Assembly: GCA_008690995.1 (NCBI GenBank)
Contig: VRMN01000015.1
Location: forward strand, 1-64,000
From: Porphyridium purpureum
Lineage: Eukaryota > Rhodophyta > Bangiophyceae > Porphyridiales > Porphyridiaceae
Reading direction: 5' to 3'
Length of the DNA stretch: 64,000 nucleotides
Each line of letters begins with the position of its first letter. The stretch's first letter is position 1. The notes beneath the pieces are model-generated. The model saw nothing but the letters and a program-made list of their open reading frames with translations. It had not been told where the DNA came from and made no database searches. Positions 2,325 through 56,430 of the stretch are shown here, piece by piece. The position numbers and the translations under genes were made by a program.

Positions 2325-2363
2325 CTCCCACGCAGCGACAACTTTTCGTCATGCCTTCCACCT

Positions 2364-6626: not shown

Positions 6627-6631
6627 CGCGT

Positions 6632-35260: not shown

Positions 35261-35325
35261 CACAACTGTACCTTTGACACGTGATGGGTACTGTAAACTT
35301 ATAGCTGTACTAGTTTGGTACAGTG
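35261..35325 (+). promoter_or_regulatory. Candidate promoter of the cpcS-like gene, with GTACAG inverted repeat
   Basis: ACTGTACC starts about 140 bp before the ATG. CTGTAC (35305-35310) and GTACAG (35318-35323) form an inverted pair about 80-100 bp before it, extended to GGTACAGT on the right. The same word is found in this position for most genes to the right. Confidence 0.5.
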
Positions 35326-35403
35326 CACTTCGGGTGAGATGCGCCACTGCGGCGACGGCAGCGCAGCGTCTGCGTCGAGTGCGGCGACACGGTTGGCTCA
35401 GAG

Positions 35404-36204
35404 ATGGCCTTTGCATTCCTTCCGGTAGGTGCGCACGCGCTGCGAAACGCGGCGCCGCGTCAATCGAAAGACGCCCGAGTCTGTGTCGAGCACAGCCTTG
35501 GCGAGCGAGTCTACACCGCGCGAGCTCATCGTGTGCCTCCGACGACGCGCTTCGATGGCACGAGGAGCAGACTTCGCTGCCAGAATGTGAATGCGGAGGT
35601 GGGTGAGGAATCAGTCGAGCACGCGGGCAGCGAGGAAAGCGTGCCTGCGCAGCCCCCTTTCTCTGCGCGTGGAATGGGAGTCGAGGAATTCTTCCAGCGC
35701 TCCATCGGCGAATGGCGCTCGCAACGCAGCAGCCATAATCTGCTGTGGCAGCAGTTTGAGCAGGTTGAGTCTGAAATCGTCATTGAAAATGTTACCGCGG
35801 AGGATGAGGAGGTCAAAGGTGTATGCGAGCAGTACAAAGCGGACGCGGACTCCATTGCTCTTGCGATTCGCATGAGCTGGGAAGGCACGTCAGATTGGGA
35901 TGAGGACGAAGTACTCAAAGGATCCACCGTGCTTGTAGTTCTGAAGGACTCTGAAACTAGCGGCCGACTGTTGCGCAGCGTAGGCTATGCGGAAGAGATT
36001 CCGGCAGTCGGGCAGTGGCGTATGGAGACGGATGGCGTGTTCGTGCTGGACACCTCGTACGACCGGGCCGGCGCGGAAGAGCGAATTTGGTTCGCGACGC
36101 CAGACCTGCGCATGCGCGTATCTATGATCAAGACAGCTGGAAATACGGGAGTTTTGACAGCGTCTTTTTCAAGTGAGATTCGACGGCGCGGTGCTGGCAA
36201 GTAG
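35404..36204 (+). CDS. cpcS: S-type phycobiliprotein chromophore lyase (CpcS/CpeS family)
   Basis: The protein has 266 aa. Residues from about 91 to the end match the CpcS/CpeS lyase fold. They show FFQRSIGEWRSQRSSH at the start of the barrel, then SWEG..DWDE, GSTVLV, GRLLRSVGYAEE, EERIWFA.PDLRMR and a final ASFSSEIRR. These lyases attach phycobilins to the conserved beta-subunit and allophycocyanin cysteine during phycobilisome assembly in the plastid. The first 90 residues are Ala/Arg/Ser-rich and poor in acidic residues at the very N-terminus, as expected of a plastid transit peptide, so this is a nuclear gene for a plastid protein. The exact subclass (CpcS, CpeS or CpeU) cannot be told from the sequence alone. 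The frame is intact and has no intron. Confidence 0.9.
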   Translation: MAFAFLPVGAHALRNAAPRQSKDARVCVEHSLGERVYTARAHRVPPTTRFDGTRSRLRCQNVNAEVGEESVEHAGSEESVPAQPPFSARGMGVEEFFQRSIGEWRSQRSSHNLLWQQFEQVESEIVIENVTAEDEEVKGVCEQYKADADSIALAIRMSWEGTSDWDEDEVLKGSTVLVVLKDSETSGRLLRSVGYAEEIPAVGQWRMETDGVFVLDTSYDRAGAEERIWFATPDLRMRVSMIKTAGNTGVLTASFSSEIRRRGAGK

Positions 36205-36311
36205 GCCGGACAGCGGGACCGGGCCGGATATCGAGCAGGCGTGACGTGGGCATGTGCTACGCGCACTGTCCGGTCAGAGTCCAGCGTTATTAAGCACTTC
36301 CCTCGCAGGCT

Positions 36312-36568
36312 GCGCTTGCAGTGCGCTTGCAGTGCGCTTGCAGTGCGCTTGCAGTGCGCTTGCAGTGCGCTTGCAGTGCGCTTGCAGTGCGCTTGCAGTG
36401 CGCTTGCAGTGCGCGTGCAGTGCGCTTGCAGTGCGCTTGCAGTGCGCTTGCAGTGCGCTTGCAGTGCGCTTGCAGTGCGCTTGCAGTGCGCTTGCAGTGC
36501 GCTTGCAGTGCGCTTGCAGTGCGCTTGCAGTGCGCTTGCAGTGCGCTTGCAGTGCGCTTGCAGTGCGC
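36312..36568. repeat. 11-bp minisatellite downstream of cpcS
   Basis: GCGCTTGCAGT is repeated about 23 times almost without change (one unit reads GCGCGTGCAGT). Because 11 is not a multiple of 3, three units give the same 11-residue peptide in every frame, which creates spurious overlapping ORFs on both strands. It sits about 110 bp after the cpcS stop and about 375 bp before the next start. Confidence 0.97.
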
Positions 36569-36730
36569 GTTACAGCGTGGCTCACATGACCGGCACTTAG
36601 CAGATAGGATGCCGAAACGGCATGGCCGGTGCGCCAGCAGCTACGCACCGGGCATGAGAAGACTTGGCGTGATCGGATGGCAATAAAGAGTCGAGCAGGG
36701 CATCAGGCGATCGGCGAGCCACGCCCGGCG

Positions 36731-36773
36731 GTACAGCGCGAGCTCAGGGATCGTGCGCGTAGTAAGGTACAGC
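36731..36773 (+). promoter_or_regulatory. Candidate promoter with two GTACAG words
   Basis: GTACAG lies at 36731-36736 and GGTACAG at 36767-36773, both in the same sense as the gene and about 170-210 bp before the preferred ATG of the 36944 gene. Confidence 0.4.
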
Positions 36774-36943
36774 ACTTCGACCGTGATTTCAAATTTTCAA
36801 ATCTCAGTCATGAGCTGCCGGGAAGCGCCCGGCGGCAAGAGCAGGTCGGCGTGGGCTTCTAGGAACGGACGTCGAGCGGTCCGCGCAGCCGAGCAGCCAG
36901 ACTAGACCCGGTGCCTGTATGCGTTCGTTTGTCCTGCCGTGGT

Positions 36944-38176
36944 ATGGAGGAAACGGACGGTGCTGCCGCTGGTCCCGACCGCGTCGATGAGGCAGGCCAC
37001 TCGAGCCGACAGAGCGACCTGTTCCTGCGAGACGTATCCGCTCGATTGGAATCTCTCTGTTTCAGCTCCTCGCAATCATGGGACGAAAAGCTGCTCGAGG
37101 ATGTCATAAAGTGCATGGCTCTCGTGTCCGGATATTGCCAGCCGTCGGAGTCCGTTCGTCAAACGAGCGCAAGTGGAGCCATCTCATTCTTCTGTAGCAT
37201 AATTCATGCGACGCAGCTTTGCCCGCATGAGTATCATGGTCCACTTTTTAGACTTTTGGTCTCGCGAGCGACTCGAAAGTGTGTGAAACATCACGCGCAT
37301 GAAATGTCTTTGGCTTGCTTGCATGCGCTAGCCATGCGCATCAGGATGCCCAGCACAGGCAACGACGAGTGGATGGTATTCTGCGGCTCTATAATTGAGG
37401 CCTGTGCTCGCAGGCTCCTTTCACATCCTCTTTCAAGCGTGGAAGGCGAGTGTGAAAGAGCCTTTGGTCTAGTCGAGCCATTTGAAAGTTGCATGGTGCA
37501 AATTAACGAGCTTCGCATGGTTGAGCGCCTGGAATGGTGTAGTCTGGCAGATTCAACGCATGGCTGCTATTTAGCACTGACGAAGCGTTGGCTGGCAAGT
37601 GTTCTAAGGCATTGCTCTGTTGCCGTCCTACATAAGTTGTGCGAGCGCTTCGAATTTGCGTCATGCCCATTCGTTCTCTCTGTGCTTCATTTGCATCTCG
37701 CAATCGCGCACGCACAAGGCGCGCCTGTGCTTGTCTCAGTCGACAAAGATACTTTTCAAGAAAGTGCCAGTGCAAGTGCGCGCTCATCGGGCGTGCATGG
37801 AATTGAATCGGAGCTGGAGACAATCGCAGAGAGCTTGAAGGGGTTGAAGATTTCTCGGTCTCTCGGGTCTGAGATAAGTACGGCGACAGAAGCATTTAAC
37901 CCGTTTTCGCGCGCAACCCTTGTTGAGGACATGCTTGATTTATCGGATGTCGCGAGCCGCCACCAGTCGCCTCATTCCAGTCGTACTTCTGCGAGTCTCA
38001 GAAACCCGACGCGTGATTCCGACAAGGTCCAAGAGTATGCCGCTCAAAATCGTGTTCCAGCGGTTGCAAAGGGGAACTTGTTTATGGTGCAAGATGTATT
38101 GAGTGAAAAACAAGTGCAGGATCGGAATGAAACTGCAAAAGTGAAGGCTTCTTCATGGAGTAAAATCATGCTATGA
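36944..38176 (+). CDS. Unrecognised protein, 410 aa
   Basis: I choose the Met at 36944 (MEETDGAAAG). An in-frame Met at 36911 would add 11 residues. The first 270 residues look all-helical with several Cys- and Leu-rich helices, which could be an alpha-solenoid, but I cannot assign a family. Residues from about 270 on are Ser-rich and probably disordered (ASASARSSG, SRHQSPHSSRTS). The frame is intact and, judging by codon use, real, and two GTACAG words lie upstream. There is no signal peptide or clear membrane span. It may be lineage-specific. The stop is 238 bp from the convergent PIG-S-like gene. Confidence 0.7.
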   Translation: MEETDGAAAGPDRVDEAGHSSRQSDLFLRDVSARLESLCFSSSQSWDEKLLEDVIKCMALVSGYCQPSESVRQTSASGAISFFCSIIHATQLCPHEYHGPLFRLLVSRATRKCVKHHAHEMSLACLHALAMRIRMPSTGNDEWMVFCGSIIEACARRLLSHPLSSVEGECERAFGLVEPFESCMVQINELRMVERLEWCSLADSTHGCYLALTKRWLASVLRHCSVAVLHKLCERFEFASCPFVLSVLHLHLAIAHAQGAPVLVSVDKDTFQESASASARSSGVHGIESELETIAESLKGLKISRSLGSEISTATEAFNPFSRATLVEDMLDLSDVASRHQSPHSSRTSASLRNPTRDSDKVQEYAAQNRVPAVAKGNLFMVQDVLSEKQVQDRNETAKVKASSWSKIML

Positions 38177-38414
38177 CCAAAACGTTTCCGCACGAGGCCA
38201 TTTGCTTTGGACGTGGATTCACTGCGGCGATGGCCAAGGTAATTACATACAAACATTTATTCTCGCTCGGCAAGCATATGCAGCCCTGGAATTCAATGCC
38301 CAACATTAAGTGGAGCATAATCGGTTTTACCTGTGACGTCTCAAGAACTCTTGTCCTGTTAGCTTGTTGAATGGACACAGGAGTCCATTCCCTTGACTGT
38401 GACCACAACTCAGA

Positions 38415-40589
38415 CTAGAATTGCGAATACAGATAGTTTTGTCGCTGTGCATCAACCTTACGCACTCCATTACTGGGGCCTCCGCTCACTTTCAATTTCT
38501 GAAACCGGACCAGTCCCTTCTTCGCCTCCAGAGATGTTTGCCGTATGATTGAAGCGGGTGTCTCATCACTAGACCGCATAACTTTTCTCTGTAGGAAAAG
38601 AGCAAGGCTAGCAAACACGATGGCCGACCCCAAAATCAATCCGAGCACCCATCCAAGAAACGGTGGCGTCTTGTTCTTTCTGAACGATAAGATCTTCTCG
38701 GGTTCTGCATCAAAGTGTGAAAGAGCCTTCTCAAACAATATGATTGCCTCATTATAAGTCGACAATTCAGCACGCAAGTCTCGCAGTCGGCCTTCAAGTC
38801 TGGCCCGCAGATTTATGTAGCCGATGGCATGGTGCTGAAGCAAGCCATTCAAGCTGCGTGCACTTTGCTCGCGCCACGACCAAAATGGCGTGTTCTCTGA
38901 ATCCAGCCAGTAGTATTTGTGTGAAACTTCTTCCAACTCACGAGCAAACGCATCCACCATCCGAACGCAGCTCCATGCGCGCATCGCAATGTCCACGTGA
39001 ACGACATAGTCAGCAAAACTCGCAAGCTGATCAGAGCACCCACCGCAAGACAATGCAAATGGAGCCATACCAAATCCCACAATATGATTACCATACGGTC
39101 CCTCGGTGGCAGGCAAGAGTCCAGATGCAAAGCTTACAAGGAAGGCAAACGTGGAACTTCCTTTCAGATTCACGAGCAACATGGTTCGACTCCCACTCGT
39201 CTGATCCGAGTCGTATGCAGCATATCCCATTGATCCCGTGGTCGAATCCTCGATCAAATCACTCTCGACGATGTGAATCACGAGCTCTGACGGTTGCTTT
39301 TTCTGACGCACAGAATTCTTGTCAGGTTCCAAGGACTTGCCGTCTGTGTATTCTTTCAGGAAAACCTGCTTATAATCCCATAGCGCCCTTGATCGTGAGA
39401 GCGTAGGCACAGGTTCACTGAGGGAGTCCACGATCGCAGATGTGACAGGATAGGACCGCAGATCGACGGAAAGTTCTGCACGGTCTGGGACGAGCAAACG
39501 AAAGAAGTCATGGGCCATCCTTGCATTCAAGCACAGCCCTGATATTCGTGCGTCGCATGCTACATGATGACCTTCCACGGCATGAGGAGCGCGATTCTCA
39601 GACACCGAAACAAGATGTACGCGAGAGCTCGTGGAAACATCGTCGTCACAGAACAGGCTAGCAGGAAACAGGGCCGACCTCAGAATATGCACTGACCACA
39701 CAGCAATACTAGTTCTGGAATCCTGCCTGCTCCCTTGCAGACTCGGAGGAGCCAACGAGCCGGACCAGGATAGATCCCGCACTGGCATGCATGGTCCTGC
39801 ACGTAAATCCACAAAGACAGAGGCAGGTCCTGCAATAAAGGCCGCAGCGGACTGGTTGAGTCCCATATTGTAGCAATAATTTGAGTCAGATGCGACTGAA
39901 AGATCCATAAATGTGATGGTCGGAACCACATGACCACGGGCAGAGTGATCATTGACGCGCGAAACGTTTGTCAGCGACCTGAGCCTTTCCCGCCACAACG
40001 CGCCAATGGAGTCTGGCGCGTCGTCAAACACATATCCATCGACCGCAATCAATCCTCTCGCGGCATCGAAGAAGCGCTCAGCTAAAAGGCCGATACCCTG
40101 CTTGCTTTCGGCGGTCCGGCTTTTCCTGAGCTGCCCCGGTACCACAATGATATCAACCTGAAATTCCGGCGTGATCTCCACGTGTGTCTCGCGAAAACCA
40201 GTGCCCGACGTATACTTAGTGCCTGGCTGATCGTCCTCCTCCCTGTCGAAGTCACCAGGCATCGCACACAGAGCTCGCCAGTGGGGCAGAGCCATACGCA
40301 GCACGCTCGCAACTTGCTCCTGCAACCGACTCGTGCGATGAAGCTCAGTTTCCGATGCGCTTAGCACCCATTGGATGCGAACAGGGAAAGGCATGCTGAA
40401 ACGAGGACGCTGCGGGCCACTTGTTCGCAATGCGTGATGGTCATGATCCACATCAAAAGCGTCTGGCGGCAGCGGCTCCGCGTCTGCAGCGATTGAGATG
40501 CAAATCCACATTACCCAGACGGCGACAAGCACTCCCGCGAAATGCAGAAACGCCATGCGCGCCGTCCGCGCCGCATTTCTCAACAACAT
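38415..40589 (-). CDS. PIGS: Probable GPI transamidase subunit PIG-S
   Basis: The architecture fits PIG-S/Gpi17. A signal-anchor follows the chosen start (VLVAVWVMWICISIA, about residues 20-35). A large lumenal domain follows, with PFPVRIQWVLSASE near its start and DIIVVPG later. A helical stretch near 640-690 leads to one C-terminal transmembrane helix (WVLGLILGSAIVFASLALFL) and a short basic tail. PIG-S is part of the ER complex that transfers GPI anchors to proteins. The frame is open 86 codons upstream, but those residues are Arg-rich and lie before the hydrophobic anchor, so I start at 40589. Conservation of short motifs is weak, as usual for this family. A different type of double-spanning ER protein is possible. 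Confidence 0.6.
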   Translation of the reverse strand: MLLRNAARTARMAFLHFAGVLVAVWVMWICISIAADAEPLPPDAFDVDHDHHALRTSGPQRPRFSMPFPVRIQWVLSASETELHRTSRLQEQVASVLRMALPHWRALCAMPGDFDREEDDQPGTKYTSGTGFRETHVEITPEFQVDIIVVPGQLRKSRTAESKQGIGLLAERFFDAARGLIAVDGYVFDDAPDSIGALWRERLRSLTNVSRVNDHSARGHVVPTITFMDLSVASDSNYCYNMGLNQSAAAFIAGPASVFVDLRAGPCMPVRDLSWSGSLAPPSLQGSRQDSRTSIAVWSVHILRSALFPASLFCDDDVSTSSRVHLVSVSENRAPHAVEGHHVACDARISGLCLNARMAHDFFRLLVPDRAELSVDLRSYPVTSAIVDSLSEPVPTLSRSRALWDYKQVFLKEYTDGKSLEPDKNSVRQKKQPSELVIHIVESDLIEDSTTGSMGYAAYDSDQTSGSRTMLLVNLKGSSTFAFLVSFASGLLPATEGPYGNHIVGFGMAPFALSCGGCSDQLASFADYVVHVDIAMRAWSCVRMVDAFARELEEVSHKYYWLDSENTPFWSWREQSARSLNGLLQHHAIGYINLRARLEGRLRDLRAELSTYNEAIILFEKALSHFDAEPEKILSFRKNKTPPFLGWVLGLILGSAIVFASLALFLQRKVMRSSDETPASIIRQTSLEAKKGLVRFQKLKVSGGPSNGVRKVDAQRQNYLYSQF

Positions 40590-40907
40590 TTGCGCAGTTA
40601 AATTAGCCACATACACGCAATTTTTTGTCCGCTTGCGGTCGAATCTTACATTCTGGTCCTCGTCAAGTCGCCGAGTTCCATCAGTCAAAGGACTCGTGCA
40701 ACGTATACGTCGAGAGATGCCGGTGAGGAGTGCCAAGTATAGGCGCCGCAAAGCGATCGCGCTCTCTCCTGCCTCTGTCGCGAATGCGCGGTGAAGAATG
40801 CTGCTGGTGCGCAAACCCCTGTGCTGCCCTTCTCTTTCTTCTTTCACCTTTTCGTCACAAATGGTGGTCAGACGTTTTAATCATTGCTGCGCGTGGACTT
40901 GGCCTAC

Positions 40908-41510
40908 TCAAAAAGTCATCTCGTTCGAGTATTTCTGGACAAGCGAGTTGAAGTTGTCGACGGCGCCGGCCAGATAATTACCTGCGCCTTGGGAAGGGTC
41001 GTACTGCAACAAACAAGACAGGAGGGGCCGCGCCTGCTCGTCGGCTCCCTTAAAGCGAATGACGTGCAGCATGTGGCCGCCTTGCTTGGCTGGCTCCGTA
41101 CTCAAAGTGACCTTACTCACCTTACTACAGTTCACGTGGCACTCGAACAGCTTGTCCGTGGATGCCACAGTCACATACTCGCCCAGCGGCGTATCAAACG
41201 GAGTCTTGGTGTAGTCGAGCCGCCCGATGGTCTCGAGCACCGCACCATCCGAGATGACGATGAATCGGAGGGTACCGAGCTGACCCGCATCATGCATGAA
41301 CTCTAGCAGCTTGTCGCGCTTGGACACTATCGGCTGCGAAGAAACGGTGTCGGCTCCCATTCGCGTACCGGAGACGCCCGTGATCCCCCGCGTGGCGGAG
41401 CGCGAGCCCCTGCGAGCAATGGCCGCAGGTTTCTCGTTCCATGATGCGCGCCGCTGCCGAGCGCGGATCGACTCGGCAGCGGCGGGGCCAGCTCCGCAGA
41501 AAGCAAGCAT
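40908..41510 (-). CDS. Plastid-targeted HutX/ChuX-like protein (tentative)
   Basis: About 200 aa from the chosen start. The first 70 residues are rich in Ala, Arg and Ser with few acidic residues, a likely plastid transit peptide. The remainder (KRDKLLEFMHDAGQLGTLRF, then IVISDGAVLETIGRLDY, FECHVNCSKVSKV, HVIRFKG and FLLQYDPS-like LLQYDPSQGAG) is a compact alpha/beta domain. It has the VxNxGxxLET and YDP patterns seen in the HutX/ChuX heme-utilisation fold. I offer that only as a suggestion. The frame is open further upstream, but that part overlaps the divergent promoter at 41627-41668, so the start at 41510 is preferred. The partner gene (LYAR-like) begins 266 bp away on the other strand. 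Confidence 0.45.
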   Translation of the reverse strand: MLAFCGAGPAAAESIRARQRRASWNEKPAAIARRGSRSATRGITGVSGTRMGADTVSSQPIVSKRDKLLEFMHDAGQLGTLRFIVISDGAVLETIGRLDYTKTPFDTPLGEYVTVASTDKLFECHVNCSKVSKVTLSTEPAKQGGHMLHVIRFKGADEQARPLLSCLLQYDPSQGAGNYLAGAVDNFNSLVQKYSNEMTF

Positions 41511-41626
41511 GGTGCAGCAACCAGACGAAGTGGAGGACGAAGCGGCGCCACCAGCTGCTGCGCATCCAGCGCGCCCGGCTCGTGACCTCGCGCGCGCAGA
41601 CGCGCAAGGCGGGTGTTCAGTTCTAG

Positions 41627-41668
41627 GTACTGTTAGTACAGTGATTTGAATGTACCCGGAGGTACAGT
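41627..41668. promoter_or_regulatory. Divergent promoter with four GTAC words
   Basis: GTACTGT (41627-41633), AGTACAGT (41635-41642), TGTACCC (41651-41657) and GGTACAGT (41661-41668) lie midway between the minus-strand HutX-like gene and the plus-strand LYAR-like gene, about 110-150 bp from each start. CGGAGGTACAGT here closely matches TGGAGGTACAGT of the Copia LTR. Confidence 0.6.
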
Positions 41669-41776
41669 GGCGTGCCGGGACGCCGACGATGCGCGGCAGG
41701 ACGCGCGGGCGTGCGTGCTTCGGTCGGCTGCCGAGTTGGGACACGCGCGGCGGCCGAGCAGCGGTCACGAGGAGAC

Positions 41777-42448: not shown

Positions 42449-42681
42449 CGTACCATGTCAATCTGCAAGGGGCCAATCTAGTCGTTAGCGTTTTGTACGC
42501 ACAACTTGCAGGGATACATCACGGCAAGGGATGCTTCCACGCACCCTTTCGTGTTGGCTTCCAGAAAAGGCTACCGATGTCAGCACGCAACTGGGAATCT
42601 GTTCTCCCGCTGAAGAAAAAAAAAGGCTTTGAGCCAATGGAAAAAGGACACACGGAAAGCATCTGCGGCTCCGATTCTTTC

Positions 42682-43551
42682 TTAGAGCACTGCCGCCATT
42701 TGCTCTCGGTCAACACTTCCAAAAGACTCGCCGTGGTTTTCCTGGAGGGCTTGATGCAGGAGAAATCGCATCACATCATTCAGAAACTGACTCTGTTCGT
42801 TTTCTGGTATGATTGCAAAGGAAGGAATATGAAGGAAGAGCGTGTGTATCTTGCACTTACTGCCAGCTAGAACACGAGTCTTCTCTGACGCCAGCCGTAT
42901 GCTCTGATAATAAGTCCAGTTGCAAACAAATCTGCCCGCGTCTTGAGATTCGCGCACCTTGTGCCCAAGCGTAGCGAGGTACTGCGTTAGCGCCTTTGTA
43001 TCTACGGTAGACGAGCGGTAAGGTACGGCCGACGCCGAGTTTTCGATGAGTTGATGTTGTGGCCTCCACCCTGCTTCGTCGGCGCATCCAAAATGCGCCT
43101 CATTGTGCGCGATCGATTCGACATGAAACTTGCTTGTAGCGCTGTGCACGCCCAAGTGAATCACGTAAATGGTTCGAACACCTCTGCTGGGGGATTTAGG
43201 CGGCTGCGCCTCGTAGAGCTCGCACATATCGTCGTAAATTCTTTCAAGGGCTTGCTGCACGGGTTTTGCTGCCGTCTGCAAGACGCAGCAGCGAACCCCA
43301 CAGTGCCCATGGCCTTCTGTCGCTTGCCACGAAGCGTAGAGCTGTCGCACGAGCCGCTCGGAGGGATTGAGCCCCCACCCTTCGAACGGACCAAAGCCCG
43401 TCACCACGAAGAACACATCGTCCGGCCGACCGCCGGCCGCGGGAGGCGCAGGCGACGTCCAGAGCAGGCCAGACTGCGCGGCGCTTGCTTCAGGTTCTGC
43501 GAGTGACAGCGGCATGTTTAGCGTAGGCGTCGGCGGCGAACTGCGTGGCAA
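42682..43551 (-). CDS. Pyroglutamyl-peptidase I (peptidase family C15)
   Basis: The protein has 289 aa. It starts with a roughly 45-residue Pro/Ala/Ser-rich leader, followed by FFVVTGFGPFEGWGLNPSE, the family hallmark. The Glu/Cys/His catalytic residues are in place: E145 in HVESIAHN, C210 in GRFVCNW and H241 in LFLHIPSF. The enzyme removes N-terminal pyroglutamate from peptides, normally in the cytosol. The leader is longer than in most family members and could be a targeting peptide. The gene is convergent with LYAR (234 bp between stops). The frame is intact. Confidence 0.92.
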   Translation of the reverse strand: MPRSSPPTPTLNMPLSLAEPEASAAQSGLLWTSPAPPAAGGRPDDVFFVVTGFGPFEGWGLNPSERLVRQLYASWQATEGHGHCGVRCCVLQTAAKPVQQALERIYDDMCELYEAQPPKSPSRGVRTIYVIHLGVHSATSKFHVESIAHNEAHFGCADEAGWRPQHQLIENSASAVPYRSSTVDTKALTQYLATLGHKVRESQDAGRFVCNWTYYQSIRLASEKTRVLAGSKCKIHTLFLHIPSFAIIPENEQSQFLNDVMRFLLHQALQENHGESFGSVDREQMAAVL

Positions 43552-43611
43552 GCACCCGGCAGCGAGTCGGCACGAGCCACGATCCAGCGTGATGGCCTGA
43601 GTGGTGGCTGG

Positions 43612-43653
43612 ACTGTACTTTTTAATGGCATAAGCTGTGCAACAAGGTACAGT
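43612..43653 (-). promoter_or_regulatory. Candidate promoter of the pyroglutamyl-peptidase gene
   Basis: ACTGTAC (43612-43618) and GTACAGT (43647-43653) form an inverted pair 60-100 bp upstream of the minus-strand ATG at 43551. The 43654-43871 stretch to the next stop codon is otherwise empty. Confidence 0.5.
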
Positions 43654-43871: not shown

Positions 43872-46800
43872 TTAAAACCATCCCTTCTTTTTCGTGTTCC
43901 GAAGCTTCACGTTCTCCTCTTGTGCGAGCGCGAGGGCAACCTTCGTCTCCGTTAGCAGCACAAGAATTTCTTCAAGGGATAGCGATTCGCCATCGTTTTC
44001 CAGCGTCCTGCGATCTGTGCCATGCGCGTCGCCACTCAGGCGCGCCCGTTCCGAGTCGTCCACCATGCGCTCAAGCCTGTCCAGCTCACGCTCCAAGTCT
44101 CCCTTTTCGACCCGCAGAGCATCGATCTCGCGAGTCAGTCGAACAGACACGCTCTCCTTCTCCCTCTGAAGGACGTCCCGCTCGGATTCCAGATTCTTCA
44201 GGTCTTGCTTCGCCTGGCGATAATCACGCTCCCGAGCGGACAACATGTCTTCAAGTTCATCGAGGCGATTGCGTTGAGCCTCCATTTCAGAAGCACGAGC
44301 CGTGGTGGCTTCGTTTTTCGAACTGTCGCGGTCCAAGCAGCGGGCCTCTTCCAAGTCCTTCTGAAGCAACTCTCGTTCCCGCTCCATGTTTCGAACCTTG
44401 AGCTGCATCTCATTCCTAAACTCTTCATGCTCGCGAGCTACCTGCTTGTTCTGAGACTGAACCTCTACATGGCGAAGCTCAAGCTCCTCCATACTTTGCT
44501 CCGCTTCGCTCTTGTCCGCCTTCAGGCGTACCGCTTCCTTTTCCAGCTCGACAACGTGGACGCGCGATGCGGCAAGGCTTTCCTCCAGCCCAGATAAGGC
44601 TGTCTTGTGCTCGTTCTCAAGCGCTTTCAGTCTTGCCTCGAGCTCTTTTGTTTTTGTCTCGTACTTCGCCGCCTGCCTTTCAACGTCCCGCCTTTGATCT
44701 TCCACAGCTCCGACTGCGCTGCGACTTGAAGAATCTACTCTTTCCAAGTCAGAGGAAAGCCTAGCATTTCGAGACTCAAGCTCGTTGACGGTCAAATTCA
44801 AGGTCGTTATTTGAGCCCCAAGACTAGCGACTTTGGCAACGTTTAACGCAAGCTCTTCCTCCTTTTCCTTGCGCCTCTGCTCCTCGCTGGCCTTTCCTAT
44901 AGCATTCTCTTCGCTACACCGTTTCTCCTCCTCCAAAGATTCGATCAAGGTGCGTTTTTCGTCCTGCAACCCAGCAATCTGTTCTTCCAGACCCGCTATA
45001 CGCTGTTCAGTACTTCGCAGCAACTCCTGTACGCGTCCTATTTCGCTGTTGGCAGAAGAAACGGCGTTTGCGAGGTCCACATTCTCTCGTGTAGACTTTT
45101 CAAGTTGGGCCTCTAGACCAGACAAGCGCGCGGAGGCGTCCGCCAGCTGAACCTCAAGTCCACTGACGGTCCTATCTCTTGCCTCACGCTCACTTTGAGC
45201 GGCAACGCACAAGTCCTTTTCTGCTGCTAAACTTTGCTTGAGCTCTTCGTTAAGTTTTTCAGACAATGCAAGTTTGGTTTCAAGTTCATCCAACCGCTCA
45301 GATGTTTTGGACAACTGTTCCTCAAGATGGGCTCTCGCTCTTGCCTCCTCCTCCCATTGCTCCTTCATGGCCACGTTCGGTTGCGTGTCCGACGACAAAC
45401 GTTCGGACAGGTCCTCCTTCTCTCGCCCAACATGAGCGACCTGGGCAGCTAGTGCTGCTTCTCGGTCAGCGGCTTCACCAATCTGAGTTTGCAAGGCGTC
45501 GCGTTCTGCCACAATCAACGCGAGCGACACATTTTCGTCCCTCAGTTTGTCCAGCTCCACTGCCATGACTTCAATGCACCGAGACCGCTCGGCACTGTCG
45601 TCCTTGTATCTGTCAGCTTGTTCGGCTGATTCCCTAAACTCTATGCTTTGCTTTTCGACGTGACTTTGCAGAACCGAGACCTCAGCCTGCACTTCGTCCA
45701 ACGAAAGCTTTAAAGAATTCTTCTCATGCTCAACTGCTTCTAAAGCACACTTATGCTTCTGAACCTCATCAGCCAGCCTTTGATAGTCATCGGACTTGGA
45801 GAGCATCTCAGCTTCCAGCTCCCGCTTTGATGCTAGGATGGCATCGTGCTCGCCCAAGCTGTTCTGCGCATCTATCAACTGAACATTTAGGCTTTCTTTC
45901 TCTTCCTGCAGCGCAGTAATCTGCTCGTTTTTCTGCGCAACGTGGGCTTCTAGAGCCGAGATTTCACCCTGCATTTCGTCCAGTGCAAGCTTCAAATCGT
46001 TCTTGTCTTGTTCAACAGCTTCTAAAACGGATTTAAGACTCTGAATTTCCTCACTCAATCCTCCAGAGTCGTCGGACTTGGACAGCATCTCAGCATCCGC
46101 TTCTCTCTTGGACGCTATGACGGCCTCGTTCTCACCCACGATCTTCTGCAACTCAGACAATTGCACACCCAGGTTTTCCTTTTCTTCTTCTGACGTACGC
46201 ATTTGCTCGCTTTGTTGCGCGAGACGAACCTCGCAAGCCGTCCGTTCAGCATGCTCGGCATCCAGCGCAACCTGTAATTCGTGCGCCTCCTGCTGAGCGG
46301 CTTCGAAAGTTGCCTTCTGCATCTGCATCTGATCAGCCAGCTTTTCCAACTCATTCGATTTGAAAAGAAGATCTGCTTCAACCTTTTGTATTGATGTCCT
46401 TGCGATGTCAAGCTCATCCAAACCCGTCTGTGCTTCATTCAAGCGAGCTTCCAGGGCTTTGTTTTCCTCTTCCAATGCACTAAGTTCCTGTTTGTGAGAA
46501 ACGTGCACGAGCGCCAGCTGCTTCTGAGCAGCTTCCGACTCAGCTTCCAAACCTGCGATTCTCTCCTTCAAATCATTGATCTGTTCATCTTTAGCCTCCA
46601 TGTCAGACTGGAAGCGCGTTTCAAGAGCCTTGGAGGCCGCATCGGTTCTTAAAGCCGCCTGCTGCAACATGTCCTGGGAGCTTGCGTGGTCTTTGCGAAG
46701 ACGCTCTGTTTCCTTCTTCAACACTTCCAACTCGATTTCCTGATCAGCATATGTTTGGGCGATTTTCTTCTCCGCGCTCTGCGCTTGAGAATATTTTGCC

Positions 46801-48731: not shown

Positions 48732-48908
48732 GGCATCAGCCGTGGGGACCTCGGGCGAACGGACTTGCTGCGCGCCAGCGACGGCCCCTCGCTTCGGCCG
48801 CGAAACGTGCGCGCACGACCCAATGGGACCGAAAGGTTCGCACGGCTGCTCATGCGTGGCGGGCACTCGCCCGTTTTTGAAACCAGCACAGCTTTGGGCA
48901 TGGCGGGT

Positions 48909-49012
48909 GTACAGTGCGTGCTGTCGTTGATGGGTGACGTGGCTGCGCGGGTCGCGTCAGTTGGGCGCCGCACCCAGACGTGTATGACGTGCGACGGCGT
49001 AGCTGGCTGTAC
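48909..49012 (-). promoter_or_regulatory. Candidate promoter of the NT-C2 gene
   Basis: GTACAGT (48909-48915) and CTGTAC (49007-49012) lie 180-280 bp upstream of the preferred ATG. If the longer frame start at 48866 is real, the nearer one is only 43 bp away. The stretch 49013-49304 up to the next stop codon holds no recognised gene. Confidence 0.4.
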
Positions 49013-49304
49013 TGCTTCTTTACTTTCCTACCTGGTCCGCCGTACCTCTCGCAACCCACCCTGTCTCCATCGCCAAATGTCTAGCCGTGGGGGCACACGC
49101 AGAATGCACGCCGTGCTCGCGCTCTCGCTGTGGTTCTAAAAATTCCCCGTGTCTTTCACTAAGGCACAAAGTTCTTCGAGCATGCGTACAGATCTCAATT
49201 TTCAGGAATGCACCTTTCTCACTCCATCTTAATAATTGCTGTATTCAGTGTTTCCTAATCACCAAGCAGCTCACCGCGAGCAAACGTCCCATTCCGGTGC
49301 CGGC

Positions 49305-50672
49305 TCAGTTGGGCGCGTTCACCTCCTTCGGAGTGGGTGCATCCTTTGACGCCACCGAGACAGGGATATTGTGTCTCAGAAGTACCTCCATATATTTCGT
49401 TTTGTCCGTGTTCTTCGCCAGCTCTTTCACAACTGCCTTGCGAACGTCTTCAGTAGATCCTCCCGCCATTTTAATGGCCTTGGCGGCCTGGAAGGGCTGC
49501 GGGTTCTTCTGCGACTTTGTAAGCTCGTCCATCGGAAAGTCGTCCTTCACGTGCTGCCGCATGTGACTGTTGGGTACGAAGATGATAGAGTCAAACTCTC
49601 CTGTCGTGCTTTGCGCCATGCGCTTCAAAACGTCTTCAAGTGTGCCGACGTCGATTTCGCACGTGGGTGGGATCTCCCCAATCCCCATTTCCTGCAGCTG
49701 CTCCCAGCTGCTCTCCAGGTCATGCCTTGCCAAAAACAGCGGTACGTACTGATTGTTGTCTTGCAAAAGCGTGAGACCTTTGGCCTGGAAAACTGGAATA
49801 CCGTTGAAGTTTTCCACCGTCAGCTCCTCCTCCGGCTGGGCGTCCTCGCTCTTTTCACCCTCGGTCTCCTCCGGAGGCATACTCTTTAAGCGCTCAATGG
49901 CAAATTCGACCTGCTTTAACTCTGGCCGGAACTGGAACGCGAGAGGGAACGATCCGCCAAGCATAATGGCCTGCAGTTCCTCGACATACTGGTTCGACTG
50001 AGTGTCTTGAGCCAGAAACAGTGCCTGTGACAGGCTCACGGGAACGATGTTCGCGGCGTCTGCGAGCCCCGGGTTCTGCTGCTGAATCCATTCCAGCGTC
50101 GACTGAGCCTCCGAATACTCAAAGTAAAACGTGCAAATCTGCTGACCATCCTCATACGTGACAAAGAACGGCTGGCCTTGGGCGTCAGCTACGTAAAAGC
50201 ACGGCACTCCGTCCAAGCGAGCCATCATGTTTTGCTTTGGAAGCACGTACAGATGCTGTGACTGCTCCAAACATGCCTTGGCAAACTCAAGCCCCTTTGT
50301 CAGGTCCTCCTCGTCCTTCGCGATGGCAAGGCCTGCTTCGAACGCCGCAATGGCGTCGTCAAAGCGCTTGAGGTGGCACAAAGCCATAGCCTTCCGCTTG
50401 TACGCTTTCCACCACTTTGCGTCCAATGCGATGGCCTTCTCGGCGTCCTTCAGGGAGTCAGCATACTTCTTTGCACTGAAGTATGCAGCAGCACGATTTG
50501 TGTACAGCACCGGGTTCGACTCGTCCTCGTGAATCGCGCGCGTGTACAACTTGAGTGCCTGCTGGTGGTCGCCCTTGGTCATGAGCGCATTGCCCTGATC
50601 CTTGAGGTCATTGGCTATGCTCTTGCGGTCAATCGCACTGCTGGCGCTGCTGGCCTTATTATTCTTCGCCAT
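49305..50672 (-). CDS. TPR-Tic22 fusion protein
   Basis: The protein has 455 aa. After a short Lys/Ser-rich leader, three TPR units (about residues 15-120) have the Hop/CHIP arrangement: LKDQGN, then LYTNRAAAYF, then KWWKAYKRKAMAL. The Lys/Asn/Asn/Lys/Arg positions of a carboxylate clamp for the C-terminal EEVD of Hsp70/Hsp90 are all present. From about residue 160 the protein matches Tic22 (GVPCFYVADAQGQPFFVTYE, NIVPVSLSQALFLAQ, the second lobe GIPVFQAKGLTLL and a C-terminal region). Tic22 acts in protein import between the two plastid envelope membranes. I see no clear transit peptide, so the product may act on the cytosolic side or be targeted in an unusual way. The upstream 51 open codons are not needed. 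The frame is intact. Confidence 0.8.
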   Translation of the reverse strand: MAKNNKASSASSAIDRKSIANDLKDQGNALMTKGDHQQALKLYTRAIHEDESNPVLYTNRAAAYFSAKKYADSLKDAEKAIALDAKWWKAYKRKAMALCHLKRFDDAIAAFEAGLAIAKDEEDLTKGLEFAKACLEQSQHLYVLPKQNMMARLDGVPCFYVADAQGQPFFVTYEDGQQICTFYFEYSEAQSTLEWIQQQNPGLADAANIVPVSLSQALFLAQDTQSNQYVEELQAIMLGGSFPLAFQFRPELKQVEFAIERLKSMPPEETEGEKSEDAQPEEELTVENFNGIPVFQAKGLTLLQDNNQYVPLFLARHDLESSWEQLQEMGIGEIPPTCEIDVGTLEDVLKRMAQSTTGEFDSIIFVPNSHMRQHVKDDFPMDELTKSQKNPQPFQAAKAIKMAGGSTEDVRKAVVKELAKNTDKTKYMEVLLRHNIPVSVASKDAPTPKEVNAPN

Positions 50673-51214
50673 GGTTGCGCGCCGATTTAAGGAACAGCCT
50701 ATGCGGCCAATTGCAGTCATCGCCTTCCAGAGCAGCGCGCGTCGCAACGCGTGCACGCAAATCCTTTCGCTGTCGCTTCCCGCAGGCCTGTCCGCGCACG
50801 TCCAGTCCTGGCGTGTGGCCGACAAGCCCGGAGCCGCCGCACGAGCTGTGGCGTGCGTCGCACGCTTCCGCCACGCGCGCGCAAGCGTCGACGCACAGCG
50901 ACCGCTGGCGGCTCAATGCAGCCTGTCCTCCGCGCCGTCCTGCCGTGCGCGCCCACCTCTTCCAGTGCCCGTCGTCCTCCAGCCCCACTGCACAACCTGA
51001 GAGCGCGCGTTCCACGCCGAGTTGTGCCACCACCTCCACGCTGTGAGACCCACTCGCCACTTTTATACCCGCGCCCGCGACTCGCGTGTGTCGCCTTGGC
51101 GTTCTCCGCGACTTCCGGCTTACCGCTCCCTGCCGGAAATCACAAACAGACCGTTTCACAGCGCGCGCCATACTCCGCCCGACCACCGTCGGCGACCGCG
51201 CAGGTCAAGCACGC

Positions 51215-51291
51215 ACTGTACCGCCCCACCTCGAGATCGCGCCTGCAAAAAGGTACACCCGCGCTGTACAGCACTGTACATCGCACTGTAC
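51215..51291. promoter_or_regulatory. Divergent promoter region with four CTGTAC words
   Basis: ACTGTAC occurs at 51215-51221, 51273-51279 and 51285-51291, and the 8-bp palindrome CTGTACAG at 51264-51271. The cluster lies between the Tic22-type gene (minus, start 50672) and the DNL-type zinc-finger gene (plus, start 51568 or earlier). It is the densest cluster of the word in the window. Confidence 0.55.
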
Positions 51292-51567
51292 TTTGTGGTG
51301 TACCGCGCAGTGGGACAAGGCGTCTTCTCGTGGGGTGGAGTTCCTGCGCGGGTGGCGAGCGCCGCGAGGGTAAGCACGGTGGCGCGTCATGTCATTGCTC
51401 GGGCTGCGCAACTGCGTGCGCGCATGGGCGGGTGTCCGGGCAGCGTGGTTGCCTGTGGCGCTGCGCCAGCGCCAGCGTCACTTGGCGTTGCCTGCTGAAG
51501 CTGAGAAGAGCCGCCGGCGGCGGCTGGCCGCCGCGCAAACTCCTTTCGACCGCGCAGGAGCAGCGCG

Positions 51568-51910
51568 ATGACAATCTGGCGCACGCTGTGGCGCGCCGCA
51601 GCCGCCGCTTCTCAGGCATCAGTGCCGGGCGCGTGGTTTGGCGACAAGAAGATGATGATGCGGTTCACCTGCACAAAGTGCAACACAACGCAGGTGAAAG
51701 TTCACGCGCGGCGCGTATGAGAACGGCGTTGTGCTCATCCGCTGCGAGGGCTGCCAGAAACTGCACCATTGACAATTTGGGCTGGTTCGAGAGCAGCCGC
51801 AAAACATCGAACAGATTCTCGCAGAGCGTGGCGAGAGCGTTTCGAAAATTCAAATTGACGAGCCCGCACCGTCAGATGTAGAAAACGCGATTGAGCAATG
51901 CCGTCAGTAG
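51568..51910 (+). CDS. DNL-type zinc-finger Hsp70 escort protein (DNLZ/Zim17/Hep1), frame-disrupted
   Basis: The zinc-ribbon of the family is plain: FTCTKCNTTQVKV, then YENGVVLIRCEGCQKLHHI, then IDNLGWF and a C-terminal ILAERGESVSKI segment. Both CxxC pairs are present. Zim17/Hep1 proteins keep organellar Hsp70 soluble in mitochondria and plastids. The parts lie in three frames: breaks occur near 51718, near 51767 and near 51805, each compatible with one missing or extra base. The conserved residues continue exactly across them, so sequencing error is more likely than loss of the gene. MTIWRTLWRAAAAASQA at 51568 looks like the end of a targeting peptide. Another Met at 51389 in a different frame could be the true start. 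It shares a promoter region with the TPR-Tic22 gene. Confidence 0.82.
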
Positions 51911-51989
51911 CCGACAACGAACGTCGCTTGATAGAGAGCATCCATTCGTCTTATGAGAAACGATGCAAGTTTTCAAACCTTATTTTATA

Positions 51990-52873
51990 TCAATCTTCGT
52001 CACTGATTTCCCTTTCGATGCGTCTCGCCTTGTGCGCCGGACTGCCAGGCTGAGAATCTTCTGGAGCTGCCGTACGCGTTAATCTATCTTCCGCTGGTGC
52101 CTGCAGGTATCCCGCCGCTACGGTCGGCTGAAACCGGATGTCCTGGTGCCGACTGGCCGACGGGAGGACCTGCAAGCGCAGGCCTGCCTGGACCCGGAGC
52201 CAGACCCGGTCCGATGCTTGATGAACGCCGGCGCCTGGCCAGCTTTGTCGAAATCCCTCCGCGGACCACCGCGTCCGCGGAACCCGGTCCCACCTCGAAA
52301 CCCGGGATGCCCGCCACCGCGACCGTGAAACCCACCAGCAGCCCCGACCCCGCCTCCGTCCATATCGCGGGTCGTTTGCGAACATTCTGCTGCTGAAGTG
52401 GCTGGTCGCCGGGACCCTTTGGGCCCCACATCGTGTCGGCCTGGAAGCGCTTACCAAACCCGCCGCGGCCCTCGTCATACTCTGTGCGCAACTCATCGCG
52501 CACCTGGCCAGCGGCCGCGGCCAAACTGGCGGCCTTCCTCAAAGCCGGCGTCAAAGTCGCAGCGGATGACCCGCCCGTCGAGCTTTGTGCCGGACATACC
52601 ATGCACAGCACTGTGCGTCCTCGCGCGAGGCGTATTCAACAAAGCAAAAGCCGCACGGCGTCTTCTGAAACTTGTCCAGTCCCATGATGATGCGCTTGAG
52701 CTGGCCGCCTTGCTGACAACGCCCAGATCTGCTCCTCGCGCGTGTGGAAGCTCAGGTTGCCGACATAGCGTCGCCGACTGGGCCAGCGCTTCAAGTATCT
52801 CTGGCCTCTCCTGGTAGTGCCGGTCCACATACTGCGGCTTCTCTGCGTCCTCGCCTTCGTACAGCGTCGCCAT
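51990..52873 (-). CDS. Nuclear cap-binding protein subunit 2 (CBP20), frame-disrupted
   Basis: From [13 protein letters not shown] at 52873 the minus strand encodes [12 protein letters not shown], then RNP2 ([15 protein letters not shown]), [20 protein letters not shown] (RNP1), [19 protein letters not shown] and [10 protein letters not shown], then [21 protein letters not shown]. This is CBP20 almost residue for residue. It binds the m7G cap with CBP80. These parts change frame four times (about 52770, 52715, 52620 and 52500), each time by one missing base. Downstream, a Gly/Arg-rich tail ([15 protein letters not shown]) and an acidic end (EREISDED, stop 51990) lie in further frames, so the tail is probably longer than in animals. 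Conservation across every break argues for read errors rather than a pseudogene. Confidence 0.85.
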
Positions 52874-52964
52874 GTCATGCCATCCGACTGCGGCGATCGC
52901 GCTGCTGCTGCTGCTGCCACGCTTGGTTCGCGCTCCCGCCGCACGCAACTTTCACGCTAAGCAC

Positions 52965-52985
52965 AAGTACAGTTACACTGTACTT
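52965..52985. promoter_or_regulatory. Divergent promoter with a 21-bp GTACAGT palindrome
   Basis: AAGTACAGT and its exact reverse complement flank a 3-nt TAC spacer. The site is 92 bp before the CBP20 ATG (minus) and about 150-180 bp before the translin start (plus). It is the most symmetrical example of the word in the window. Confidence 0.62.
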
Positions 52986-53130
52986 TGAACGCTTGTGCGC
53001 GTGCAGCGGCGTGGCGCCATGCGCGGCGCTCCGGGTTGGTGTGGGTGTGTTTGACACGGGTTCGAGCTGGTGTTTCTTCAGAGTCGCGCGCGCTCGAGGA
53101 GGCTCCAGCGCCGAGCCGGCGGCAGACAAC

Positions 53131-53761
53131 ATGGAAGCCGCGTTCGGAAGTGCACGAGCGCATGAGCGCCGAAGAGCAGCTCAAGAAGGAGATTCGCGAG
53201 CGGCGCGATCTGCTGGACACCGCGCTGGAGGCGCCGCTGAGAGGTGAGCGCGGCGCACCACGTCCAAACTGACGCGCTGCCAGAGCTCGTGGCGCGGCTC
53301 TTCGCGGTCTTGCCTCCGGTGGGCGAGATGATCCGGCAGATGCTCTCGTCGTGCCGCCAGGCGAGTTCTACAAGTATCTGGACTTTTCCGGAATCAAATG
53401 CAGACCGCCGTATTTGTGACTGTTCTCGCAGGCTTCCTGGAAGCCCAGGTGCTCGCAGATGTTGAGCAGGTCAAGATGAGGTTGGGCCCGACGCCTCCTC
53501 AATGCCATGGACGATTATCTAATCGGCCTCTGTATGATGGTTTCGGAACTCGCGCGACTCACAGTCAATCGCGTCACTGAAGGAGATTACGCGTTCGCGC
53601 AGCGCGTCAGTAAGTTTGCATTTGACGTGCATCAAGGCTCTGATCGCTAAACTTTCGGAATGACCTCGGTTCGTCGCAAATATGACGGAATGAAGTACGA
53701 TATTAAGAAGATTGAGGACGTGATGTATGATCTATCGGTGCGCAATTTGTTACCGAAATAA
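53131..53761 (+). CDS. Translin, frame-disrupted
   Basis: Segments match translin in order: SAEEQLKKEIRERRDLLD; a helical region with PPGEFYKYLDFS-like residues; MQTAVFVTVLAGFLEAQVL; LNAMDDYLIGLCMMVSELARL; TVNRVTEGDYAFAQRVSKF; and YDGMKYDIKKIEDVMYDL, followed by SVRNLLPK and the stop. Translin is an octameric RNA and single-stranded DNA-binding protein that forms C3PO with TRAX. The frame changes several times (near 53160, 53240, 53365, 53490 and 53635) while the conserved sequence continues, as in its neighbours. The start could be 53131 or the in-frame Met of the conserved part at 53162. Confidence 0.82.
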
Positions 53762-54276
53762 TATGCGAGCTGTGGGATGCACGTGCGGAAACGGTAAGCT
53801 TCCAATTTCCACCTTGTTCATAAGGCATGTCGCCTTGCCACGGCATTCCTTTGGCGGCTCGTTTTCCTTGATGAGATCCTTCGTGGACTACTGCGTTATC
53901 GTCGGTATCTGGGTGTCACACCCAATGACCACTTTTACAATTCTTTCTGGGTTGAGAAATCGAGTTTTCGTTGCGTCCGGCCCACTTTGACAGTAAGTCG
54001 TAGTCTACATGCTACCTATGGATATTCTAACCTGTTGATTTGTGTTGCGCGTGAAAAAGCGGCGCGCTGATTTTGCATACTCCAGGCTTTCAGGCGCACT
54101 TGTCTGATCGGTTTTGATCGCCACCTCCAGACCTGATGTATGTTGTCGGCCCTGTTCCTGTTTCTCCGTGATCTCCGTTATCTCTGTTTCTGCCCTTGAT
54201 GAGGAGAGAGCAACAGGCTAGTAGCTAGATACTCTTCAGCAAAACAATACACAACCCGACCTTAACTCGCACAGAC
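53762..54276. other. Convergent intergenic stretch
   Basis: It lies between the stops of translin and the carrier gene. I see no gene, repeat or GTACAG word here. Confidence 0.5.
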
Positions 54277-55327
54277 ACTACGACAAAGCGGCAGGGTCCG
54301 GCATCTTGCTTAATTGCTTCAATAATTCGTACGCTGACACCATGCAGGTACCCCAGATAGAAACATTCACCATTCGCGGAAGAACGCCGCGAAAAGGCCA
54401 GCGAAGCCGTCTTCCCTTGATCAGTCCGAAAAGTACGCACAACGCCGGGCCGTGATACGCCAGGCAGCGTCTCTTGCACTTGCATTCGCACTTTCAGCAC
54501 ATCTAGCGGAGTGGTGAGTATAATTGAAGTTGCCTGCGCCCAGGGCTGCAAGAATTTGCATGCTTGCGGCCTTTGCAGACAGCATGCGCCTGGCGCCTCG
54601 CTAGTCGTGGCTCCGGTATCGCTTTGCTGCTCGGAATCAGGTCCAGTTTTGAAGCTGCCTCGAACAGCAGGCGCTTGTACGCGCCGTATGAGCCCCACCA
54701 AATTGCAATTCGCTTGGAACAAAGGTCGCAATTGATAGCCGTATAGCCCTTGCCGGAAGCCTTCGTTTCGGACAATCCACATGGCGAGCTGCAGGCCGTT
54801 TGCGTACCTTGTGTCGGATTTCTTCTGTACAATGAGTCGCTGGCTGACCACATCCATGGGCACGGTGACAGTCTGCGTGGCGAGGGCTGGCGACCGCGCC
54901 CGCGGCAAAGCTAGATATCGCCGTGTACTTTGCGGCGATTCCCGGCGAGCCCTGCAGTGAGTTGAGGTCAAAGCAGTTGCTGCCCATAAAGCGGACAAAT
55001 TCGTGTTCAAAATAAGCCGGCAGCGCACCACCAGGACGGTGCCGAGCCCCTTGTAGAAGCCCCTGAAACCCAAACTCGTTCTGAATGAACGCCGCCGTGC
55101 GCGACATGCCGCGCGCATTCCTGAGAGCTGCGCAGCCGAGTACCTGCTACTGGAGAACATGATCTGGCGGGTCTTGATGACGGACAGTGGATATAGCGCG
55201 AGCGTGACTCCGCTGAACAGGAGCGCGCCGTACCCAAAGAAGCGCGCCTTGTTGAGCCGATCCCATGTGACATCCGGGGCGCGGCAAACTCAGAGTCAAA
55301 GTCCGCGCCCATCCTACTTCGCCGCAA
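54277..55327 (-). CDS. Mitochondrial carrier of the SLC25A44 type, frame-disrupted
   Basis: Minus-strand pieces give DVTWDRLNKARFFGYGALLF and SGVTLALYPLSVIKTRQIMF (first carrier repeat, compare WEHLDKKKFYVFG ... YPFTLIRTR of SLC25A44). FRGFYKGLGTVLV, QTVTVPMDVVSQRLIVQKK (second repeat P-x-[DE]-xx-[KR]) and IILTTPLDVLKVRMQVQ (third repeat) follow. The last segment is FRGVLPRMVNVSIWGTCMVS and YELLKQLS, ending at a stop at 54277. Three Px[D/K]xxR/K signatures confirm an SLC25 carrier. SLC25A44 relatives move branched-chain amino acids into mitochondria. The substrate here is inferred only by resemblance. The pieces lie in different frames with about five one-base breaks. An Ala/Arg-rich segment in another frame up to an ATG at 55501 may be an N-terminal extension. 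Confidence 0.78.
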
Positions 55328-55509
55328 GATTCAGGAGCCGCCTGCGCGCTAGGAAGCCTGCGAAGGGCATCGTCAGTCCGATACTCGCGCCAGCTACGCC
55401 AGAAGCCCCCGCCACGTCCACGGCAACACGGCTCAACGGCGATCTGCGCGCAGCCGCGTCCTCCACTGCCAACCGCACCAGCTCGCGCTAGGGTTCCTCA
55501 TCACGCGCG

Positions 55510-55515
55510 GTACAG
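55510..55515 (-). promoter_or_regulatory. GTACAG word upstream of the carrier gene
   Basis: GTACAG at 55510-55515 is followed by CACTGTATTT at 55519-55528, giving a degenerate inverted pair about 185 bp upstream of the ATG at 55327, or next to the alternative ATG at 55501. Confidence 0.35.
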
Positions 55516-55529
55516 CGGCACTGTATTTT

Positions 55530-56423
55530 TGATCCCGCGCTGCGCGGCGCCGTTGTCTGTGGAGCCGCTGTGCCGACATGGCGGCTCGCGTATAGCTCGT
55601 CACGCAAGCGTGGCGCGAGAGCACGCCGAGCATGCGCAGAGGCGCAATGCCGGTGCAGCTTTGACCGGGCGCGGCGGCGGTGTCGACTCTGACGGCGACC
55701 GCGCGCTCGCACGTCAGTGGGTCCTTTTTTCTTCTGTTTTCGGTTTTGACGTCATGGTGCGCCTGGCTGCGTCTGACGCCAGGACCCTGTACGTGATCAC
55801 CTCTTCTTTGGTCGAGTGTTGTGGCTGAGCGCGGTTTTGCGCGCTCCATAGCCTTGTGCTCATACCCAGGAGAAAATTGAGCGACCCACACGTCGCGGCT
55901 GACGAAAATGCTAGGAACGTTTCGCGTCGGAGAGCGTCCACAGTAGCCGCCCTTAGATACCGTGTCTGGCGGTCACCGGCTGACGACGACGCTTGAATCT
56001 TCCCACTCAACTACAAAACAGAAGGACGCGCAACCTATTCCCGATCGCGCCCAAATGACTACCCTAGCGCCCACTCCAGCGAACCCAGAGCGTTACAGGT
56101 GCGCCCGATTAGCGTTCTTTCCCCTTTCGTCCTGCGCTGTCGCCCGCACCGCCACCACGCAAACGCAGTGCACGTGTTCCCAGCTGGCGCGCGCAAGCGT
56201 GACGACTGTTTCGCGTTTATGCGGTTCGGGCCGCGCAGGTTACGCGAGTGGGCAGCGGCAATTGTACGGCACGGCTGCCCAGGTTGACCAGAGCGCGCGG
56301 CGAGTGTTGAATGCGGCAGCGCGCTGCGCACGCGCCAAGCTACGAGCGGAGAACACTGGCGCAGCCGCTACAGCAACCGCGCCACAGGCCAGAAATCCGG
56401 ATGGCAGTAGTGTTCAGTCAGAA
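55530..56423. other. Spacer upstream of TOR, no gene recognised
   Basis: Overlapping frames on both strands (for example 55962-56444 plus and 55433-55891 minus) are rich in Arg, Ala and Cys. They have no recognisable domain and look like GC-rich chance frames. A short, frame-disrupted gene cannot be excluded given the state of the neighbours. Confidence 0.35.
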
Positions 56424-56430
56424 GTACAGT
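56424..56430 (+). promoter_or_regulatory. GTACAGT word 40 bp upstream of TOR
   Basis: AAGTACAGTTAC here repeats the left arm and spacer of the CBP20/translin palindrome (AAGTACAGT-TAC). It is the closest example of the word to a start codon in the window. Confidence 0.45.

Follow-up and report, generated by a model that had tools for sequence, protein, structure and literature searches.

What is the short word GTACAGT doing between the genes of the red alga Porphyridium purpureum? The question is raised by the first 64,000 bp of contig VRMN01000015.1 (assembly GCA_008690995.1), the stretch analysed here and called the window. An earlier note on this DNA had proposed that GTACAG(T) marks nearly every 5' spacer, either as a core element replacing TATA or as the site of a dimeric regulator. 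We find the word strongly enriched upstream of genes, in the window and elsewhere in the genome. From its distribution it is probably the site of a putative sequence-specific DNA-binding protein, promoter-proximal and of the general-regulatory-factor type, and not a core element.

Enrichment and position of GTACAGT

The window contains 23 copies of GTACAGT, compared with 3.01 ± 1.66 in 100 dinucleotide shuffles, none of which reaches 23. The shorter GTACAG occurs 51 times, against 15.5 in dinucleotide shuffles. Across the genome scanned (22,164,627 bp in 46 contigs) there are 6320 copies of GTACAGT and 3088 of the control, the same word with its letters reversed. Genome-wide counts are slightly raised by redundancy, with contig G000:C9 (71,914 bp) apparently duplicating part of contig C2 (G000:C2:624900-676030). 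We considered C9 as a second haplotype of C2 on which conservation could be assessed. Both stretches compared are identical, and C9 is therefore probably assembly redundancy and useless as such a test.

Genes were called in the window and in 15 ten-kilobase stretches (L005-L019) fixed by round coordinates before inspection, the blind stretches. Together these gave 96 confident genes, called from open reading frames (ORFs) by a codon model; their starts were trimmed by a model trained on 3' parts, which moved 11 of the 96. A promoter zone is taken as the segment 60-220 bp before an ATG, free of other genes, giving 71 zones (24 in the window and 47 in the blind stretches). All distances run to the ATG and not to the transcription start site.

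With untrimmed starts GTACAGT has a density of 1.26/kb over the 400 bp preceding genes and 0.13/kb in coding DNA; the corresponding values for the blind stretches alone are 1.32/kb and 0.15/kb. The upstream profile is highest 75-200 bp before the ATG, with 5.1/kb at 125-150 bp, and the first 75 bp contain no copy at all (trimmed starts). GTACAGT lies within 300 bp upstream of 17 of 87 genes. At least one copy is found in 15 of the 71 zones, where coding DNA leads one to expect 1.4, and GTACAGT is the best 7-mer when ranked by the number of zones holding it. Positive zones have 1, 2 or 7 copies. In 25 promoters chosen for words at 50-260 bp the distance to the ATG is 74-242 bp, which moves the range of 40-210 bp suggested earlier somewhat outwards. 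Orientation relative to the gene is 18 same to 22 opposite, bearing out the neutrality that had been noticed. Enrichment in promoters and a preferred position relative to the ATG, both implied by the earlier note, are supported by the sample zones together with the genome-wide counts of words and pairs.

The claim of near universality was overstated. The word is present in 6 of the 24 window zones and in 9 of the 47 blind ones. With only 15 of the 71 positive in all, it characterises a minority of promoters (about one in five of the genes sampled) and not nearly all. Nor is GTACAG absent from coding DNA as had been thought, for copies at 45027, 50247 and 50502 lie inside the NT-C2 and Tic22 ORFs, and called coding DNA of the window holds 13 (0.416/kb). 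For the full GTACAGT the claim fares better. No more than three of its window copies lie inside a called ORF, at 51215-51291, where the codon score is poor and the DNA is probably non-coding, although over the window and blind stretches there are 15 coding words (0.115/kb, trimmed starts).

Shape, packing and setting of the site

The exact word occurs 30 times in the zones, and no one-base variant more than six times (GTACTGT 6, GTACAGC 6, GTACACT 5, GCACAGT 4). GTACTGT precedes GTACAGT within 30 bp 67 times in the genome, compared with 2 for the control, and is probably a weaker form of the site. Among the 30 zone copies, position -2 is A in 16, G in 11, T in 3 and never C, position -1 is a purine in 23, and position +7 is G or T in 24. 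The site spans about ten bases, RR-GTACAGT-K; the two bases before the word and the one after it belong to the site because the limits on the gaps between paired words match the flank bias.

Those limits emerge from pairs up to 30 bp apart, counted genome-wide with repeats included. There are 890 direct pairs (10 for the reversed word), 245 inverted (4) and 303 everted (1), and the preferred spacing differs with orientation. Direct pairs favour a gap of 2 bp (79 of 890, where even gaps would give about 29), and inverted pairs favour 3-5 bp (71 of 245, about 24 if even). Everted pairs are scarce at 0-4 bp, with 4 of 303 where about 49 would be expected, all of them at 4 bp. Full gap profiles were drawn among the matches listed (100 of 890 direct, 50 of 245 inverted, 50 of 303 everted).

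The proposal of a dimeric regulator is consistent with the favoured inverted spacing. It sits less well with the favoured direct gap of 2 bp and with the isolated words, for 27 of 52 non-coding copies stand more than 30 bp from the next exact word, and pairing is therefore not obligatory. Inverted half-sites at one spacing are not the main form, direct pairs outnumbering inverted and everted pairs together (548). Because the direct gap is favoured too, everted pairs start at a gap of 4 bp and about half of the non-coding words stand alone, the sequences favour a compact factor whose copies would sit next to one another over a single, obligate symmetric dimer.

The word is densest in divergent spacers, with 2.04/kb (20 words, in 7 of 16 spacers), compared with 0.38/kb in tandem (5 of 32) and 0.45/kb in convergent spacers (2 of 21). 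Base composition changes at these sites. In the 25 promoters chosen for their words, the DNA separating cluster from ATG has a gene-strand GC skew of +0.244, and the 120 bp on the far side of the cluster one of -0.157 (p = 1.1e-6). The 15 of them from the window and blind stretches that have no coding DNA in the outer segment give +0.254 and -0.148 (p = 0.0004). In 74 word-free promoters, measured at fixed distances, skew is +0.131 (0-127 bp) and +0.064 (180-300 bp), with no change of sign; the outer values of the two groups differ (p = 0.0004). The switch is carried by the divergent genes (n = 16, p = 3e-5). Since the strand asymmetry flips sign at the clusters, these probably lie centrally in two-way promoters, and the simplest reading is that they sit between the two start sites.

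Neighbouring genes and retroelements

The carriers of the word discussed here are as follows.

35265..35324: cluster 79-139 bp before the CpeS-like gene (35404-36204, forward strand), with ACTGTAC at 35265, GTACTGT at 35288, CTGTAC at 35305 and GTACAGT at 35318
36731..36772, forward strand: two GTACAGC variants, at 36731 and 36767, upstream of the gene at 36944
41627..41668: cluster in the 266-bp divergent spacer between the HutX-like gene (reverse strand) and the LYAR-type zinc finger gene (forward strand), with GTACTGT at 41627 and GTACAGT at 41636 and 41662
43612..43653: everted pair with a gap of 28, 96-138 bp before the pyroglutamyl-peptidase-like gene (42682-43515, reverse strand)
48909..48915, forward strand: single GTACAGT 177 bp before the NT-C2 gene (43872-48731, reverse strand)
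51215..51291: cluster with words at 51215, 51264/51266, 51273 and 51285, 494-571 bp 5' of the Tic22 gene (49305-50720, reverse strand), within the ORF of poor codon score
52967..52983: perfect palindrome GTACAGT-N3-ACTGTAC, the commonest inverted spacing among the matches listed
55510..55515, forward strand: GTACAG, in the variant GTACAGC
56424..56430, forward strand: GTACAGT in a spacer ascribed to TOR by the earlier note only
6821..6827, reverse strand: GTACAGT 179 bp upstream of the ORF (2364-6641, reverse strand) of a Ty1/copia element, in the element's long terminal repeat (LTR) at 6646-6970
1622..1628, reverse strand: the same GTACAGT in the other, identical LTR (1447-1771)

Each spacer that had been cited does contain GTACAG(T) or a close variant, and the PIG-S spacer (40590-40907) does lack GTACAG. 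Most coordinates hold, with small shifts (35262 to 35265, 36768 to 36767). The four words seen at 41627-41668 reduce to two of GTACAGT and one GTACTGT variant, the site at 41652 being a bare GTAC.

Genes next to GTACAGT are functionally mixed. Pfam families were sought in 30 proteins selected from the word-bearing genes, and include CpeS, LYAR zinc finger, pyroglutamyl peptidase, NT-C2, Tic22, desaturase, glutaredoxin, kinase, cyclin, SDR, EF-hand, YGGT, Sel1, aminotransferase, Tim17, DEAD helicase, NOL10, SNF2, Erv1, ankyrin and others. A few of these matches lie under the curated cut-offs, as does that of the HutX-like protein, and 6 of the 30 have no family. Between about 7000 and 35000 the window is sparsely coding, with many short ORFs.

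The Ty1/copia element occupies 1447-6970 of the window and has a stop-free ORF. Its insertion is probably recent, because both LTRs are identical over 325 bp. A second carrier is a 462-bp repeat pair on contig C1, 6.2 kb apart with three GTACAGT per copy, presumed to be LTRs and without sequence likeness to those of the window element. Everted pairs recur 6-8 kb apart at five places (G000:C1:1068554/1074743, C2:35702/41895, C2:1251185/1257620, C2:1302915/1310953 and C2:1375444/1381858), of which the first was read in sequence. The word in the copia LTRs and in the presumed LTR pair on C1 suggests that retroelements may use GTACAGT too. The window also has an inverted repeat, traced over about 400 bp (2000-2400 and 7033-7432); the first arm lies within the copia element and the second outside it, and they hold the words at 2174 and 7252.

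Interpretation and comparison with known systems

As with a general regulatory factor, the word is enriched before many unrelated genes and is neutral in orientation. The putative protein would bind RR-GTACAGT-K, and GTACTGT more weakly, at one to several copies that may face either way, in the segment 75-200 bp upstream of the ATG in roughly one gene out of five. The packing of copies would reflect a compact asymmetric footprint. Clusters would mark the centre of promoters firing both ways, and the protein would act there by opening the promoter. Sites of such factors lie in DNA poor in nucleosomes, immediately before the start sites, for which the skew switch is only a proxy. A more ambitious version, which we offer tentatively as possible rather than probable, has a red-algal general promoter-opening factor organising bidirectional TATA-less promoters via homotypic arrays with orientation-dependent packing, the word having been adopted by LTR retrotransposons as a promoter signal.

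Several observations weigh against a general promoter-proximal factor. Two CA-repeat words have a higher raw count than GTACAGT when the blind stretches are taken alone; an association between GTACAGT and CA repeats was looked for and none was found. The density is still 0.91/kb at 260-420 bp upstream. One promoter, in stretch L010, contributes 7 of the 30 zone words, and a single L010 spacer 7 of the 20 in divergent spacers; when genes are counted instead, the surplus at divergent ones does not reach significance (10 of 34 against 3 of 32, p = 0.06). Among the 25 skew promoters, 7 are at loci picked on account of their clusters, and some divergent partners share one cluster. Inner skew does not differ significantly between word-bearing and word-free promoters (p = 0.06), and tandem genes alone (n = 6) have no significant switch (p = 0.22). 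Positions were measured from ORF-called genes, not annotation, with starts partly uncertain, and the reversed word equals GTACAGT in base composition and differs from it in dinucleotides. Finally, no exact GTACAGT lies in the sequence inspected around the active actin promoter, 1.5 kb to either side of the primer described below. Separately, TGTGTG runs lie mostly on the sense strand near the ATG, where the 100 bp before it give 43 counts against 3 (the words overlap, and few genes may contribute; window and L005-L019).

The minority of positive zones could instead indicate a condition-specific regulon, in which one regulator, dimer or monomer, serves about a fifth of genes in a state such as growth or light. 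The clusters resemble tuned regulatory sites, and growth-related targets are present (LYAR, NOL10, cyclin, DEAD helicase). They stand beside desaturase, kinase, Tim17, Erv1, Tic22, ankyrin and a retroelement, a mixture that makes a regulon somewhat unlikely. A core element in place of TATA might be suspected from the concentration of the word upstream and the rarity of TATAAA, found within 400 bp of only 4 of 87 genes. That reading is unsupported because copy number, position (spread over 74-242 bp) and orientation vary and 56 of the 71 zones lack the exact word, and we regard it as highly improbable.

Words within 242 bp of the ATG might also lie in transcribed leaders and act as RNA. A 19-base primer published for the P. 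purpureum actin leader (PMC10866757) has one exact genome match, 109 bp before the actin ORF, which makes P. purpureum the most likely source; its reverse partner was looked for around that match and not found. An RNA element should not occur equally in both orientations, be missing from the last 75 bp before the ATG, have everted and direct pairs enriched as strongly as inverted ones, or lie where GC skew flips sign, and there is very little to commend it. Some copies do lie in repeats: certain direct pairs are 9-bp tandem arrays of GTACAGTGT, several everted pairs recurring 6-8 kb apart resemble LTR copies, and one spacer is common to 9 of 50 inverted pairs among the matches listed. Yet pair spacers are diverse among those matches, words precede unrelated genes in the blind stretches, and the preferred spacing varies with orientation, albeit in counts that include repeats. 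The word is most unlikely to be a mere by-product of repeats. A promoter-proximal DNA-binding protein remains our preferred reading.

Because GTACAGT is strict, enriched and subject to packing rules, it predicts the set of promoters served by one factor. In the literature searched, with most subscription papers outside reach, we found no description of GTACAGT or of such a promoter signal in Porphyridium or other red algae. According to PMC10866757, promoters for Porphyridium vectors have so far been selected on how abundant the mRNA of the gene is, and the gain was limited; GTACAGT could guide the design of such vectors. It could also be used as bait for its factor among the predicted regulators in Table 3 of PMC4827209, which include 60 C2H2, 23 two-repeat MYB and 9 TALE proteins, all of them candidates for binding the word. 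That table gives 0 SBP proteins for P. purpureum, and a Pfam search for the SBP domain gave 0 matches, with its controls likewise silent.

How does GTACAGT compare with known sites? SBP-domain proteins (SPL/CRR1) of green plants and algae bind sites with a GTAC core, which GTACAGT has in common with them. Glucocorticoid-type sites are palindromes with 3-bp spacing, like the favoured GTACAGT-N3-ACTGTAC; unlike them, GTACAGT is favoured in direct and everted pairs too, and red algae are not known to have nuclear receptors. The TATA box and other core elements are likewise upstream of genes, whereas GTACAGT has neither direction nor fixed place and comes in multiple copies. The yeast general regulatory factors Reb1, Abf1 and Rap1, and promoter factors such as NRF1, have short promoter-proximal sites. 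GTACAGT is a different word from these and forms dense homotypic clusters that can reach seven copies. It is like them in being a short, strict, promoter-proximal word, neutral in orientation, with mixed targets and often in divergent promoters.

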